Source: Terriglobia bacterium
Lineage (GTDB): Bacteria; Acidobacteriota; Terriglobia; Terriglobales; Acidobacteriaceae
Reading direction: 5' to 3'
DNA: 64,000 nt
Assembly: GCA_020073385.1 (NCBI GenBank)
Contig: JAIQFH010000013.1
Coordinates: 1 to 64,000 of the forward strand
Each line of letters starts with the position of its first letter. The first letter of the stretch is position 1. The position numbers were made by a program, and so were the translations under genes. The notes beneath the pieces are model-generated. The model did no database searches. It was not told the origin of the DNA and worked only from the letters and a program-made list of their open reading frames with translations. Below, piece by piece: positions 2 to 6,727 of the stretch.

Positions 2-1057
2 TGGATGGCTGCAGGTCTCCTCTGGATTCTGGATGCATCGATCAACATCAGCATGGAGCCGTTTCGTGCTTTCGTCGCCGATTTGCTCCCGGAATCGCAA
101 CGGACCCGCGGCTTCGCCATGCAGAGCCTGTTTATTGGACTCGGAGCTGTCATCGCCTCGGCCCTGCCATGGATGCTGACCAACTGGTTCCATCTGGGCA
201 AAGGCACAGCCGGACACGCTATTCCCTTAACAGTACGCCTCTCATTTTTCACGGGAGCCGCCGTTTTTTTTGGCGCGGTTCTCTGGACCATCACCACAAC
301 TAAGGAATTTCCCCCGGATGACCTCGAAGCTTTTCAGCGCATGAAACGGGAGAAGCGCGGCTTAGTTGCAAACGCTCAAGAGATCCTCGATTCCATTGCC
401 AAGATGCCAAAGACTATGCAGCAGCTGGCGCCGGTGCAAATCCTTACCTGGCTAGGACTCTTTTGCATGTGGTTGTATTTTCCGGTGGCCGTCGCGCGGA
501 ACGTCTACGCTGCGCCTGACACGGCCTCGCCTCTTTATTCGGCCGGCGTCGAGTGGGGTGGCATCTGCTTCGGCTTTTACTCGGCGGTCTGCTTTGCTTT
601 CTCCTTCTTCCTTCCCCCGATCGCTAGCCTGCTCGGGCGCAAACACACTCATAGCCTCAGCCTCGTCGCAGGCGGCCTGGGATTGATCTCCGTTGCCTTC
701 ATCCACAATAAATATGTTCTGCTACTGACTATGGTGGGTGTCGGCATCGCATGGGCCAGCACTCTTGCCATGCCGTACTCGGTACTCGCGGGATCGCTGC
801 CCAAGGAGAAAACCGGCGTCTATATGGGCATCTTCAACTTCTTCATTGTCACGCCCGAAATTGTCGCTTCCCTGTTCTTCGGTTGGGTGATGAACCATTT
901 GCTGGGCAACAATCGGCTGACCGCTGTTGTTGCCGGAGGATGCTTCATGCTCGTTGCCGCCGTTCTCATGCAGAGGGTTTTTGACCCAGGGGAGCAGGAG
1001 CAGCGCATACAAGAAAAGCAGGATTCCAAGCAACTCGCAACCCCGCTTGCAAGATGA
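2..1057 (+). CDS. MFS sugar transporter, SLC45/GPH-like (5' truncated by window)
   Basis: This is the C-terminal ~350 residues of a polytopic inner-membrane transporter; the frame is open to the window edge, so the true start lies upstream. The segment begins with a helix containing MEPFRAFVADLLP, which resembles the conserved region after TM4 in sucrose/maltose-type MFS carriers. At least seven more hydrophobic helices follow, with a charged central loop (FQRMKREKRG) typical between the two six-helix halves. Substrate cannot be read from sequence; a mono- or disaccharide is the family expectation. It lies upstream of an exported PD40/TPR-haem gene on the same strand, about 180 bp away. The longer downstream ORF overlapping its 3' end is only an open-frame extension. 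Confidence 0.8.
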   Translation, partial: WMAAGLLWILDASINISMEPFRAFVADLLPESQRTRGFAMQSLFIGLGAVIASALPWMLTNWFHLGKGTAGHAIPLTVRLSFFTGAAVFFGAVLWTITTTKEFPPDDLEAFQRMKREKRGLVANAQEILDSIAKMPKTMQQLAPVQILTWLGLFCMWLYFPVAVARNVYAAPDTASPLYSAGVEWGGICFGFYSAVCFAFSFFLPPIASLLGRKHTHSLSLVAGGLGLISVAFIHNKYVLLLTMVGVGIAWASTLAMPYSVLAGSLPKEKTGVYMGIFNFFIVTPEIVASLFFGWVMNHLLGNNRLTAVVAGGCFMLVAAVLMQRVFDPGEQEQRIQEKQDSKQLATPLAR

Positions 1058-1241: not shown

Positions 1242-3779
1242 GTGCGCACACAAGTTCGTGAGTCCTGCATTTCAGCCGTTGTTCCAACACGCTGGCCGAC
1301 CCTGACAACCGTGGCGTTCAAACTCACTCTGATCACTGTGGCTAGTGCATTCATTGCTTTCTGCGCTGCTGGAAGCCTTAAGGCTAATCGCTCTCTGGCC
1401 GGTGACAATCCGAGAGCGAACCTCGCGATCATCACGGTCGACTATCCATCCAACCACACGCTGTTCCCGCCCGACTTTGCACCCCCCACCTTTCAATGGC
1501 GCGATACGGATTCCTCCGCCACAGTGTGGCGAATTGACGTCCAGTTTGCGGGCCATCTCTCTGACATTCAGATCAAATCCAAGGGCGAGAGGATGCAGAT
1601 CGGCAGAATCGACGAACGGTGCGCGAAAGCCGGTGCTGTCCCACCAACGCTAACGCCGGAACAAGCCGCCGGCCACACCTGGAAACCCGATACTGCGACT
1701 TGGGAAGCGATACTCCGCCACTCCCTGAAGAAGGCGGCAACTGTCACTATTACCGGCTATTCCGATGAGGGCATGACGCAAGAGCTGTCCCGAGGGGAAG
1801 TCATGATTCAGACCTCCAGGGACCCGGTTGGAGCCCCGATTTTCTTCCGCGACGTGCCCCTGATCTCGGTTCCTACAGGCGAAAAGGGACTGATTATGCC
1901 CATCCCGACCGAGGCTGTTCCATTCATCGGATGGCGCTTGCGCTATGTCGGGGAATCCGAAAGTCGCTTGATGATGCAGGGATTGCCTACTTGCATTAAC
2001 TGCCATTCTTTTTCCCGTGACGGAGCGACCATGGGCCTGGATGTTGACGGCCCTGGTAACGACAAGGGACTGTACGGCATTGTGCCCCTCAAAAGGGAGA
2101 CCTCGATCCGCAACGAGGATGTGATTCGCTGGAGTTCCTTTGCCGAGGAGCGCGCCAGCAAACGCTTCGGCTTCATGTCGCAGATCTCCCCTGACGGTCA
2201 GTACGTGATTACTTCCATAGAGAATCCCGGTTCGCACATCAAGGATTTTGACAGCCGCTTCTACAACGGCTTCTATCGCGACTATGGCTTCGGGCAGGTG
2301 TTCTATCCGACCAAAGGGATTCTCGCGTGGTATAGCAAGGCGAGCGGCGAGCTGAAACCGCTAGCGGGAGCCGACGACCCGGCCTACGTACAGGCTGCCG
2401 CGTTCTGGAGCCCAGATGGCAAGTATCTGGTGTTCTCCAAGGCTGCCGCCAGGGAACCGTATCACGAAGGGCAGGGCGTAGCGGAGTTTGCGAACTCTTC
2501 GGACGAAACGCAGATCCAATACGACCTCTATCGCATTCCGTTTAACGAAGGTCGGGGTGGAACGCCGGAACGAATCGAGGGCGCATCGCAAAACGGAATG
2601 AGCAACAACTTTCCAAAGGTCTCTCCGGACGGCCGCTGGATTGTTTTCGTTCAGAATCGCAATGGTTTGCTCATGCGCCCAGACAGCCAGCTTTACATCG
2701 TTCCTTTGCAAGGCGGCACGGCCAGGCGTCTGAATTGCAATTTGTCCCGCATGAATTCCTGGCACACGTTTTCTCCCAATGGCCGCTGGCTCGCTTTTTC
2801 CTCGAAAGGCCGCTCCCTTTACACGCAGCTTTTCCTGACACACATTGACGAGAATGGCCAGGATTCCCCGGCCATTTTGGTGGAGAATGCGACCGCCGCC
2901 AATCGGGGAGTGAACATCCCCGAGTTCATCAATATTCCTCGGGATGGGCTGGCCAAGATGGACGCCCCTGCAACCGAGTTCTATCGGCTCACAGATGCTG
3001 CCGGAGAATTATCTCGCAAGGGCGACTACGCCGGGGCCGCGCTCGAATGGAGCAAAGCCATTGAACTCGATCCAGGCGATGGCAAGGCTCGCTACCATCT
3101 TGCCTACGCTCTCGACAAGCGAGGCCAACTGCAAGAAGCGATCCAGCAATACCGCAAGTCCATTGAATTGGATGGCTCGAATGCCTCTGCCTTTGCGAGC
3201 CTCTCGATTGCACTCGCTCGGACCGGTAATGCAGAGGAATCCATAAATTCAGCAAAGCAGGCGCTCGCGCTTAATCCAAGAGATGTCTTAACCGAGGGCA
3301 ATCTGGCGGCGAGCTTACTGGAGATCGGAAAGACCGACGAAGCCATCGAGCATATCCAGAAGGCTTTGGAGCTTGATCCGGATTTTGCTGATGCCCACAA
3401 CATGCTCGGCATCATTCTCGCCCGCGTCGGCAAGCTTGATGACGGTATCGCGCACCTGCAGCGAGCCGTTTCGCTTGTGCCCGATTCTCCCGAGTACCAC
3501 TTCAATTTCTGTCGTTTGCTCGCCGCAGGACATCGTTTCCCCGAAGCCATTCGGGAATGCGAGAAGGCGGTGCAGCTTTGGAGCGGGAACGAACCCCAAA
3601 GTCTGATGATGCTTGCAGCCATGTACTCGGAGGTCGGCCGCTTTCCCGACGCAGCCCAGACCGCGCGGCGGGCTTTTGCCCTTGCTTCAGGCCAAAACGA
3701 TGTTTCTCTTTCAGAAACCCTCCGCGCTAGAATCGCGTACTATGAGTCGCAAATGAGTGCCGTTCCAGCTCAACCCTGA
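1242..3779 (+). CDS. Exported PD40 (TolB-like) + TPR protein with one CxxCH haem motif
   Basis: The ORF track opens at a TTG inside the MFS gene, but GTG at 1242 has a GGGAG ribosome site about 5 nt upstream. It gives a protein of ~845 residues with a hydrophobic export segment at about residues 24-45. Around residue 251 is CINCHSFS, a c-type haem attachment site inside a block (GLDVDGPGNDKGLY) that I recognise from a widespread TolB-like family. Four PD40 strands follow (SPDGQYVITS, SPDGKYLVFS, SPDGRWIVFV, SPNGRWLAFS), suggesting a beta-propeller, then about six TPR units from residue ~590 to the end. It is likely periplasmic or outer-surface. The next two genes also encode a haem protein and a redox protein, so a joint extracytoplasmic redox role is plausible. 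The specific function is unknown. Confidence 0.75.
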   Translation: MRTQVRESCISAVVPTRWPTLTTVAFKLTLITVASAFIAFCAAGSLKANRSLAGDNPRANLAIITVDYPSNHTLFPPDFAPPTFQWRDTDSSATVWRIDVQFAGHLSDIQIKSKGERMQIGRIDERCAKAGAVPPTLTPEQAAGHTWKPDTATWEAILRHSLKKAATVTITGYSDEGMTQELSRGEVMIQTSRDPVGAPIFFRDVPLISVPTGEKGLIMPIPTEAVPFIGWRLRYVGESESRLMMQGLPTCINCHSFSRDGATMGLDVDGPGNDKGLYGIVPLKRETSIRNEDVIRWSSFAEERASKRFGFMSQISPDGQYVITSIENPGSHIKDFDSRFYNGFYRDYGFGQVFYPTKGILAWYSKASGELKPLAGADDPAYVQAAAFWSPDGKYLVFSKAAAREPYHEGQGVAEFANSSDETQIQYDLYRIPFNEGRGGTPERIEGASQNGMSNNFPKVSPDGRWIVFVQNRNGLLMRPDSQLYIVPLQGGTARRLNCNLSRMNSWHTFSPNGRWLAFSSKGRSLYTQLFLTHIDENGQDSPAILVENATAANRGVNIPEFINIPRDGLAKMDAPATEFYRLTDAAGELSRKGDYAGAALEWSKAIELDPGDGKARYHLAYALDKRGQLQEAIQQYRKSIELDGSNASAFASLSIALARTGNAEESINSAKQALALNPRDVLTEGNLAASLLEIGKTDEAIEHIQKALELDPDFADAHNMLGIILARVGKLDDGIAHLQRAVSLVPDSPEYHFNFCRLLAAGHRFPEAIRECEKAVQLWSGNEPQSLMMLAAMYSEVGRFPDAAQTARRAFALASGQNDVSLSETLRARIAYYESQMSAVPAQP

Positions 3780-3872
3780 TCCCCGGCTCTCTAGGTTCGA
3801 TGGGAAGACCTGCAGGTCTAGGGCAAACTGCGACTTGCCCTGTGGTACCGATACGCGCTGCAGTGTTTTCAA

Positions 3873-4943
3873 GTGGATCGAGATTTCAAACGGCTGCGTT
3901 TCATCGTGATACGGCCCTTACTGGTTGTGTTTCTTATTCCCGCTGTCGCCCCCGCCCAAGCGGTCAACACCGCCGCGAACGCTTGCGCTTCCTGCCATTC
4001 ACAGGGTAAGACTCAGCCTCATACGTCGATGGGACAGGCCCTTGAGACGGTCGCGGACTGCAAGGTACTGGTCGATCACCCTCTGCTTGCTGTGACGGTC
4101 GGAAGATATTCGTACCGAATCGAACGCAAGGGCAATCAGAGCGAGTACTCGGTTACCGATGGTACGCAGACCATCACTGCGCCAGTTCGCTGGGCGATGG
4201 GGGCCAGCTCTTCCATCGGGCAGACGTACATTCTGGAAAAAGATGGCCAACTCTATGAGAGCCGCGTCAGCTATTACCGCGAATTGAATGCACTGGGGCC
4301 CACTTTGGGTTCGGCAAATTCGGTTCCAGCCAGCCTGAATGAGGCGTTAGGCCGATTGATGACTCTCGAGGACAAGCTCACCTGCTTTGGCTGTCATTCC
4401 ACAGAGGCGGTATCACACGGCCAGTTCACACCGGAAAAGCTGAGGCCGGGAGTGCAATGCAGTCACTGTCATGAAGGCAGCGAGTCACATTTGTTAGCTA
4501 CGATTCAGTTTGGCGAGGGTGTGACGTCGGCGATCCCAAAGTCGATGGCCGGCGGACTTGCAGCGGAGAAAATCTCAGATTTTTGCGGGCAGTGTCATCG
4601 GACGTGGGCGGAAATTGTTCTGCAGCCGAATCTCGGGATTGGCAATGTGCGTTTCCAGCCCTATCGCTTGGCCGGCAGCAAGTGCTACGACGCGGATGAT
4701 CCGAGAATCAGCTGCCTCGCTTGTCACGACCCTCACCGTGAACTGGTCGCCGAGACCTCGACCTACGACGGCAAATGTCAGGCCTGCCATGGAGGAGGGA
4801 AGCCAGGCGCAAAACCCTGCCGCGTAGCTAAGTCGAACTGCGCTTCCTGTCACATGCCCAAGACCGAACTACCAGGGGCACACCATAGGTTCTCAGATCA
4901 TCGAATTCGAATCGTGAAACCGAACCAAGGCTATCCGGAATAG
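3873..4943 (+). CDS. Periplasmic seven-haem c-type cytochrome
   Basis: A 356-residue protein with a GTG start and a clear signal peptide (LLVVFLIPAVAPAQA) with cleavage near residue 30. Seven CxxCH motifs are visible: CASCHS, CFGCHS, CSHCHE, CGQCHR, CLACHD, CQACHG and CASCHM, with extra His residues available as distal ligands. This places it among multihaem cytochromes related to the cytochrome c554/NrfB/octahaem group, acting in periplasmic electron transfer. I see no catalytic motif that assigns a substrate. It follows the haem-bearing PD40/TPR gene by 93 bp and precedes a TPR-thioredoxin gene; the three probably form one unit. The last haem motif sits close to the C-terminus, so the protein appears complete. 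Confidence 0.85.
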   Translation: MDRDFKRLRFIVIRPLLVVFLIPAVAPAQAVNTAANACASCHSQGKTQPHTSMGQALETVADCKVLVDHPLLAVTVGRYSYRIERKGNQSEYSVTDGTQTITAPVRWAMGASSSIGQTYILEKDGQLYESRVSYYRELNALGPTLGSANSVPASLNEALGRLMTLEDKLTCFGCHSTEAVSHGQFTPEKLRPGVQCSHCHEGSESHLLATIQFGEGVTSAIPKSMAGGLAAEKISDFCGQCHRTWAEIVLQPNLGIGNVRFQPYRLAGSKCYDADDPRISCLACHDPHRELVAETSTYDGKCQACHGGGKPGAKPCRVAKSNCASCHMPKTELPGAHHRFSDHRIRIVKPNQGYPE

Positions 4944-5090
4944 GCTTCACCGATTTTACTTGTCCTGTTGCGCTCCTTGGGGACTGACCTATACTCATGC
5001 GGTATCTTCATGGTCGCTCCATACCGAGCCCGCAATGATCGCTGTATACTCCTGCAGCAGAGAGCCACTGCTCTCAATCAGAGCGCTCGA

Positions 5091-6116
5091 GTGACGGGGC
5101 GCGCCCTCTGCTGCGCAATTAACTTCCTTGTGATTCTTGCTTGCACCGCCGCCACCCAAGGCGGAGACAATCAACAAGATCCCGCCGCCCAGGAAATCAA
5201 GGCGGGAACGAGCCTGCTGCAGCAAGGCAACTATCCCGAGGCCAAAGTCCATTTCGAACGGGCCAAGACATTACAGGGCAAGCCCACGGCAGAGACGAAC
5301 GCGGGCATAGGGTTGGCCGAGTTGCAGATGGGACATCTTGAAGCCGCGCGCCAGATGTTCACGCTGGAGCTGCAATTTGTCACCAATGATCACGCACGGG
5401 CCCAGGCGCATTACATGATCGGATCGGCGTGGCTTCGCGAAACCGCAAACGGCGCTGCCGATAAAGAGAAGTTGCAGGCAGCGGAGGAATCATTCCGTGA
5501 GGCGGTGAAGTTCGATCCGCTGTACGACCTCGCATACTTCAACCTGGCCTATGCTCTACTGGGTCAGGACAGACAAAAGGAAAGTGACGCCGCCTTTCGG
5601 GATTTCATCAATGCTGCTGCAGCGAACCCCGAGTCGGCAAGAGATCTCCCGGTCACGCCGAAGTCTCACGTCCCGCAATTCACGGTTACCGACAGTACGG
5701 GCCACGCTGTGAGCTCAGACTCCCTGCGCGGACGCTTCGTGTTACTCGATTTCTGGGCGACCTGGTGCCCTCCCTGCATTCGGGCTCTCCCCGCAGTGCG
5801 GCAGCTCTCGAAGTTCTTTCCCGAAGACCAGTTCCTGCTCATCAGCATCAATGAGGACGCAAATCAAGACGAGTGGCAGAGATTTAGCCGTACTCATGAA
5901 ATGAATTGGACCCAAGTCTGGGACCAGAATTCGAATCTGTACGATGCCTTCAGGCTCGCGCCGTCCGGCTCGAAACTGAGCCTGCCGCGCTACATCCTGC
6001 TCGATCAGCATGGGTTCGTACGGCGCGTTTATAGCGGCACCGACCAACTCGGGTTGCTGATGGGCCAGGTGGTCAGGACAGTCCGAAGTGAATTCGACGA
6101 CCGAGCCAGGCACTAA
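5091..6116 (+). CDS. TPR protein fused to a TlpA/ResA-like thioredoxin domain
   Basis: Translation probably starts at GTG 5091, because a hydrophobic segment (INFLVILAC) begins a few residues later and ends in a lipobox-like ILAC; the track start at TTG 4968 would put ~55 residues before it. About 4 TPR-like helical pairs cover residues ~25-185. A C-terminal thioredoxin fold follows with the active site WCPPC at residue ~225 and the cis-Pro region LPRYILL. TlpA/ResA-type proteins keep apocytochrome cysteines reduced for haem attachment or act as extracytoplasmic thiol reductases. The placement directly after a seven-haem cytochrome gene fits a cytochrome c maturation or redox-partner role, but this is inference from context. 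Confidence 0.8.
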   Translation: MTGRALCCAINFLVILACTAATQGGDNQQDPAAQEIKAGTSLLQQGNYPEAKVHFERAKTLQGKPTAETNAGIGLAELQMGHLEAARQMFTLELQFVTNDHARAQAHYMIGSAWLRETANGAADKEKLQAAEESFREAVKFDPLYDLAYFNLAYALLGQDRQKESDAAFRDFINAAAANPESARDLPVTPKSHVPQFTVTDSTGHAVSSDSLRGRFVLLDFWATWCPPCIRALPAVRQLSKFFPEDQFLLISINEDANQDEWQRFSRTHEMNWTQVWDQNSNLYDAFRLAPSGSKLSLPRYILLDQHGFVRRVYSGTDQLGLLMGQVVRTVRSEFDDRARH

Positions 6117-6209
6117 ATGAACCCTGTGGCTCGCCAAAATCCTACCCACCCGCGAAATCAACAGGTTGGCAGTGCGTCCACAAGCTCCTATCTGCTATCA
6201 ACATGGCGC

Positions 6210-6548
6210 ATGTTCCGCCTCTGGCTGGGTCTGGTCTTGCGCTGTATTCATTCCCGTGGAAGGCTCTTGATGGAGAACTTGGCACTGCGGCAGCAGTTGA
6301 GTGCGCTAAAGCGCTGGCATCCTCGTCCGAAGCTCATGCCGGCGGGCAGACTCTTCTGGCTGTTAGCTCGCCGCCGTTGGTCCGGCTGGAAGGGAGCACT
6401 CATCTTGGTCAGTCCAGAGACAGTGGTTCGGTGGCATCGGGCTGGCTTTCGGGGTACTGGAGCATGTTCTCGAAGAGGGCGAAGGATTCCTTGGTGTCCA
6501 TTTGGTGTCCGGTCTGTCGGGTTCCAGGAAGAATTGCGGGAATTTTAG
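6210..6548 (+). pseudogene. Decayed IS transposase / integrase-core protein (N-terminal remnant)
   Basis: Residues from ATG 6210 read as the start of a familiar integrase-core transposase (LLMENLALRQQLSALKRW, then PETVVRWHRAGF). After HRAGF the expected continuation moves to another frame (GYWSMFSKRAKD), and further on the original frame again looks family-like (VGFQEELREF) before a stop at 6546-6548. Two compensating frameshifts plus loss of the DDE catalytic part leave about 110 of an expected ~350 residues, so it cannot be active. It begins about 90 bp after the TlpA-like gene and abuts one of a pair of dispersed repeats. Its position suggests that an insertion event shaped the left border of the accessory block at 6.8-11.1 kb. 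Confidence 0.75.
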
Positions 6549-6603
6549 AGACTATTGAGAATCCGGCTATCCCCCTGCACGCCAGGGGTTTGCAGGGTAA
6601 GTC

Positions 6604-6727
6604 TTGACACATCTATAATTTGCAAAAGGCAGCCCGCAAGAATTCGGCTTATAGGTCCGGCTGCCAACATAGCTTTACTTTCAATCACTTCCAAAGCCCG
6701 CAAAGCTCGTTGTGACGCGGGTGTGAC
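6604..6727. repeat. Non-coding dispersed repeat, copy A
   Basis: The intergenic stretch 6549-6775 has no credible gene but shares two blocks with 11251-11386. The block aattcggcttataggtccgg, continuing ctgcca, at 6641-6666 matches 11361-11386 at 24 of 26 positions. The block ttgtgacgcgggtgtgac at 6710-6727 matches 11251-11268 at 17 of 18. Short ttgacac and tttgcaa words are also shared. The two blocks occur in opposite order in the two copies, so this is not a simple direct duplication. It directly follows the IS remnant. I read it as debris of a mobile element family or its target site. Confidence 0.6.

Follow-up and report, generated by a model that had tools for sequence, protein, structure and literature searches.

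Three putative redox genes at the contig start

The window, the whole 64,000-nucleotide stretch of Terriglobia bacterium DNA that was analysed, is the start of contig C50 in an 8.2-Mb genome (G000), so the upstream context beyond its first gene, which encodes an MFS transporter, is not visible. Behind this gene, ORFs A, B and C lie in a row on the plus strand, with gaps of 93 bases between A and B and of 24 bases between B and C. All three genes carry the features that the sequence-only reading had described and are placed as it had described, as judged by ORFs, Pfam matches and motif counts. The features are as follows:

5..1057, plus strand: MFS transporter gene at the contig end, separated from ORF A by about 185 bases
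about 1242..3779, plus strand: ORF A, with an N-terminal beta domain, a PD40 (TolB-like) beta-propeller with one haem-c motif and a C-terminal TPR tail
1992..2006, plus strand: C251-I-N-C254-H255, haem-attachment motif of ORF A (conservation and model strand)
2763..2765, plus strand: His508 of ORF A, candidate second haem-iron ligand (cross-phylum invariance)
3873..4943, plus strand: ORF B, seven-haem c-type cytochrome (exactly seven CxxCH)
4968..6116, plus strand: ORF C, TPR and ResA/TlpA-like thioredoxin domain (WCPPC at 5763-5777)

The same reading had placed a sugar transporter next to the three genes. An MFS gene does lie upstream of ORF A, but its resemblance to the sucrose/GPH symporter model is weak (54 bits, cut-off 511) and its link to A is not established. 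The ORF directly 3′ of ORF C (window 6117-6607) gave no match in the Pfam search; from its motif we take it to be a decayed transposase or integrase remnant, possibly at an insertion boundary. Further along, a polysaccharide-degradation region (window 11395-40508) encodes a PfkB kinase, an AXE1-like esterase, a DHDPS-like aldolase, an SSF symporter, a DUF5107-TPR protein, a heparinase-like protein and a TonB-type barrel.

ORF A starts with GTG, with GGGAG just upstream. Its product matches PD40 (57 bits) and TPR models and has a sole CxxCH, within CINCHSFS. It is apparently exported, as a hydrophobic segment can be seen by eye at the N-terminus and the Bacteroidota homologues resemble lipoproteins. 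The structure model (mean pLDDT 89.8, pTM 0.91) consists of an N-terminal beta domain followed by the propeller. The fold is TolB-like by Foldseek, and a fold search of the PDB returned generic propellers alone (S9 peptidases, TolB, and HZS-beta at rank 36). The protein shares PD40 repeats and fold with the TolB/PD40 propellers (TIGR02800; structure 2ojh) but differs from them in the CxNCH motif, the extra N-terminal domain and the TPR tail, and it scores only 32.8 bits against the TolB model, below the curated cut-off of 343. An S9/DPPIV peptidase was rejected because the alpha/beta-hydrolase catalytic domain is absent; apart from TPR, all Pfam matches are of the propeller type.

ORF B matches the MtrC/MtrF II-IV domain (36 bits, cut-off 30). 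Compared with the MtrC/OmcA decahaem cytochromes it has seven haem motifs and not ten, and only the II/IV domain model matches. All seven CxxCH motifs are invariant in 16 homologues, and the family, a conserved seven-haem family in its own right, is matched in 33 of 61 close relatives; the structure model of ORF B is of low confidence (pLDDT 59). ORF C, whose true start is probably internal, has TPR and AhpC-TSA/Redoxin matches in Pfam. It resembles the ResA/TlpA thiol-disulfide oxidoreductases in its Redoxin domain and WCxxC motif, but carries a TPR fusion and scores far below the curated cut-offs (64 bits against 170 for ResA). B and C probably encode proteins that work independently, in electron transfer and in thiol-redox chemistry, respectively.

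The CxNCH motif and His508 of the propeller

CxNCH is invariant in all 79 acidobacterial copies of the main alignment and in every further intact copy that was read, and both CxNCH and H508 are kept in 8 of 8 remote Bacteroidota homologues. The objection that the sequence-only reading had raised against itself, a CxxCH that homologues of the PD40 protein fail to conserve, therefore falls away. Residues C251, N253, C254, H255, S256, H508 and H534 are each at least 97% conserved in the 79 aligned copies of the family (family A). Across 34 aligned sequences, from Acidobacteriota to Bacteroidota, the only invariant histidines are those of CxNCH and H508. M312 was also considered as a haem ligand, but it is not conserved in Bacteroidota; H508 is preferred for that reason and is the candidate for the second iron ligand.

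In the structure model, where residue numbers are those of ORF A minus 54, CINCH (197-201) opens an inner propeller strand (198-203) and H508 (454) opens another (454-456). Each lies three residues ahead of the serine in a PD40-type S-x-D/N-G turn. This common offset puts them, by sequence, in matching places of two blades, and they may face each other across the propeller channel. The genome also encodes ResB, a haem-c maturation gene.

Haem-c motifs are usually helical, whereas the model places the CxxCH of A on a beta-strand, and the Asn and Ser flanking the cysteine pair are nearly fixed as well. Both points would fit a haem-free site at the mouth of the propeller, either a redox disulfide or a metal site (e.g. 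zinc or copper). We regard such a site as unlikely, given that the motif is a canonical CxxCH in an apparently exported protein, that the host has ResB and that A co-occurs with other haem proteins. If real, a haem site with its haem-c motif in a blade of the propeller and a conserved histidine as partner would be out of the ordinary, and it would be common to soil Acidobacteriota and gut Bacteroidota. In principle it would recall cytochrome cd1 (PF02239), where a haem also sits at the mouth of a beta-propeller; in cytochrome cd1, that haem is d1, and a separate domain holds the c-haem. ORF A was rejected as a cytochrome cd1 because the Pfam search found no PF02239 domain in it.

Distribution and gene neighbourhoods of the propeller family

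No description of family A was found in the literature. The family is patchy, with copies in 22 of 396 acidobacterial genomes and in 3 of 37 within the window's own genus. A query alignment of A with three near homologues found relatives in 222 stretches of GTDB genomes, in records mostly labelled Acidobacteria, Bryobacterales or Terriglobia, and the best 80 of these stretches were taken with their flanks. Together with 20 loci from across the phylum, a second copy in one genome (G017) and the window itself, this gave 101 distinct A loci.

Homologous PD40 proteins of Parabacteroides, Phocaeicola and Bacteroides were found in a search of a plasmid collection. A DUF6057 gene lies directly upstream in most of the Bacteroidota cases, and SusD or TonB-receptor genes lie near some; in four gut Bacteroidota loci (L170, L171, L174, L175), CxNCH PD40 lipoproteins are encoded directly 3′ of DUF6057 membrane proteins. 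These lipoproteins (e.g. Parabacteroides distasonis WP_009276472.1) have a homologous propeller, CxNCH and an equivalent of H508, but they differ from A in the missing TPR tail and in the DUF6057 partner gene, with 21-27% identity in the three compared. Judged from these likenesses, they and A are the same family in the wide sense. Counting the Myxococcales bins, identified by record titles, family A thus spans at least three groups, the other two being Acidobacteriota and Bacteroidota.

The sequence-only reading had viewed A, B and C as an extracytoplasmic electron-transfer or oxidative degradation module and had looked to co-occurrence of A with multihaem cytochromes. Such co-occurrence is essentially absent. 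Among the 101 loci, only the window and L047 have a full-length B homologue no farther than 6 kb from A, and L062 has a distant one within that range, in opposite orientation. In L047, A is followed by a TPR gene and then by a seven-haem B homologue (44% identity, same strand); this single independent A-B adjacency is suggestive only. The window is the sole locus with a complete C near A, and L028 has a 27% partial match to the thioredoxin part of C. In the same-genus relatives G004 and G017, A sits beside a TonB/Oar-like receptor and a VWA-like protein, with neither B nor C adjacent. Since B and C near A are almost confined to the window, the trio is a local arrangement. The proposed module thus does not hold as a conserved trio; for A by itself, a role in redox chemistry outside the cytoplasm is plausible.

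It would still be conceivable that the three proteins form one extracytoplasmic unit for electron transfer or oxidation, in which C reduces the CxxCH cysteines and B carries electrons to or from A. The shared strand and the gaps of only 93 and 24 bases, the gene order in L047, the B-family genes in 3 of 3 A-positive close relatives (p 0.03) and the resemblance of C to ResA all agree with this. We consider it distinctly improbable, because beyond the window a full-length B adjoins A in 1 of 100 loci and C in none, and because G004 and G017 carry A and B on separate contigs. In the same-genus relatives examined, the usual gene 5′ of B encodes a TPR protein of about 400 residues, and ASPIC/UnbV, TonB-type or VWA-like genes lie close by. 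The recurring partners of A are instead the genes of an HZS-like/CRTAC1/RidA/DAHPS cluster, and perhaps TonB-type receptors too.

Co-occurrence with a hydrazine-synthase-like cluster

Hydrazine synthase (HZS) is the signature enzyme of anammox bacteria. An HZS-like operon is present in the window's own genome:

1897-11298 of locus L150 (G000:C128:92000-111000): seven-gene HZS-like operon

Its genes encode a DAHP synthase (DAHPS, identified from its sequence), an HZS_alpha-domain propeller, a CRTAC1/ASPIC-UnbV protein, a YVTN-type propeller, a Reg_prop protein, a RidA-like protein and a Peripla_BP_6 protein. The HZS_alpha-domain protein carries CVGCH and the YVTN-type propeller carries two CxxCH. 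HZS homologue clusters of clades I-III have been described outside anammox bacteria (Hagglund et al. 2025, PMC12758564), and the core of HZS-alpha-like, CRTAC1, HZS-beta-gamma-like and ABC binding protein genes matches these clusters. The terms RidA and DAHP do not occur in the main text of that paper; the RidA-like and DAHP-synthase genes extend the reported clusters, and family A co-occurs with them. The RidA-like subfamily often sits in the conserved operon, as in this genome, and is also found in other contexts (L153, L155, L160). The RidA-like protein shows a further resemblance, well below cut-off, to the C-terminal part of the FkbO/Hyg5 chorismatase model.

At seven loci, from several other acidobacterial lineages, A itself abuts genes of these types: both a RidA/YjgF-like gene and a type I DAHP synthase in L131 and L132, DAHPS in L140 and L142, and a RidA-type gene in L141, L145 and L135 (a double-domain form in L135). 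At a threshold of 54 bits or more, HZS_alpha was found in 20 of the 396 genomes, namely in 12 of 22 with A and in 8 of 374 without it. The expected overlap is 1.1 genomes (Fisher 2.6e-12). Of the 11 and 10 acidobacterial families in which the two occur, seven have both. The RidA-like subfamily, present in 24 of the 396 genomes, shares 12 with A where 1.3 would be expected. In 45 further A-positive genomes, HZS_alpha was found in 38 and the RidA-like subfamily likewise in 38, 34 of the latter at E 1e-30 or better; this set is made up largely of Terriglobia/Bryobacterales, in which the cluster is found more often, and it apparently overlaps the 396-genome sample in at least two genomes. Among close relatives, HZS_alpha occurs in 3 of 3 with A and in 15 of 58 without it (p 0.02). 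All these tests correct only in part for phylogeny, ecology and genome size. The B family shares 9 close relatives with the cluster (p 0.06), and no association is claimed. The statistics show the HZS-like operon to be strongly enriched among genomes with A. A and the cluster lie unlinked in most genomes, and a common ecology or large genome size could also account for their co-occurrence.

ORF A itself is not recognisable as an HZS alpha subunit. It resembles the HZS alpha subunit and the non-anammox clusters (PF18582; Hagglund et al. 2025, PMC12758564) in its propeller, its c-haem motif and its predicted place outside the cytoplasm, but the PF18582 middle domain was not found in it and the order of parts is reversed, A running from beta domain through CxNCH and propeller to TPR. 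The CxxCH contexts of the two look similar by eye, but profile comparison gives homology no support (hhalign probability about 2%). No HZS beta-gamma homologue is present among the window neighbours of ORF A.

Our favoured reading, to which we assign a probability of roughly 45%, is that A represents a hitherto undescribed family of beta-propellers that carry a single c-type haem, work outside the cytoplasm and serve the HZS-like pathway. A covalently attached haem would sit where the propeller channel opens, its iron ligated by H255 and probably by H508. The TPR tail would dock a partner, and A would either catalyse a redox step on a substrate or product of the pathway or carry electrons for it. 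B may serve as a multihaem electron conduit of general use, and C may be a thiol-disulfide reductase with a possible part in haem-c maturation; each would be a neighbour of A and not an obligate partner. This reading draws on the invariance of CxNCH and H508, the position of CINCH at a strand start in the model, ResB in the host genome, the genome co-occurrence with HZS_alpha and the RidA-like subfamily, and the seven loci where A abuts RidA-like or DAHPS genes. Against it stand the lack of linkage in most genomes, a co-occurrence that ecology or large genomes could explain, the other contexts of the RidA-like gene, the weighting and apparent repeats of the 45-genome set, the lack of profile similarity to HZS-alpha, and the Bacteroidota homologues, which lie beside DUF6057 and glycan-uptake genes instead.

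A more far-reaching version of this reading is very unlikely in our estimate. Here A would be a haem-c propeller enzyme, its iron held across the channel by histidines of two blades, in an unrecognised but widespread pathway that joins DAHP synthase and the RidA/chorismatase-like protein (aromatic precursor supply) to extracytoplasmic HZS-like haem proteins and that makes or transforms a secreted redox-active or N-N compound. Family A and the enlarged clusters give concrete genes and metabolites to examine.

The neighbourhoods also suggest an accessory role in glycan uptake, in which A would be a surface redox or binding propeller working with TonB/SusC-type transporters and unrelated to the HZS-like pathway. 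TonB-type receptors are encoded no more than 6 kb from A in 35 of 101 loci (a count without a matched background), SusD or TonB-receptor genes lie near three Bacteroidota copies, glycoside-hydrolase or sugar-transporter genes lie near A in L137 and L147, and the window has its polysaccharide-degradation region. TonB-type receptors abound in these genomes, and such a role would leave the RidA/DAHPS/HZS association unexplained; we hold it to be improbable.

Other redox genes were seen beside some A homologues. [NiFe] hydrogenase subunit or maturation-protease-like genes, identified from sequence, lie upstream of or near the homologue in L080, L088 and L101, and a hydrogenase link of A was rejected as confined to these three loci. 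Directly downstream of the homologue in L077 (12237-14033) lies a gene for a flavocytochrome-like protein with an FAD-binding start and three CxxCH motifs.
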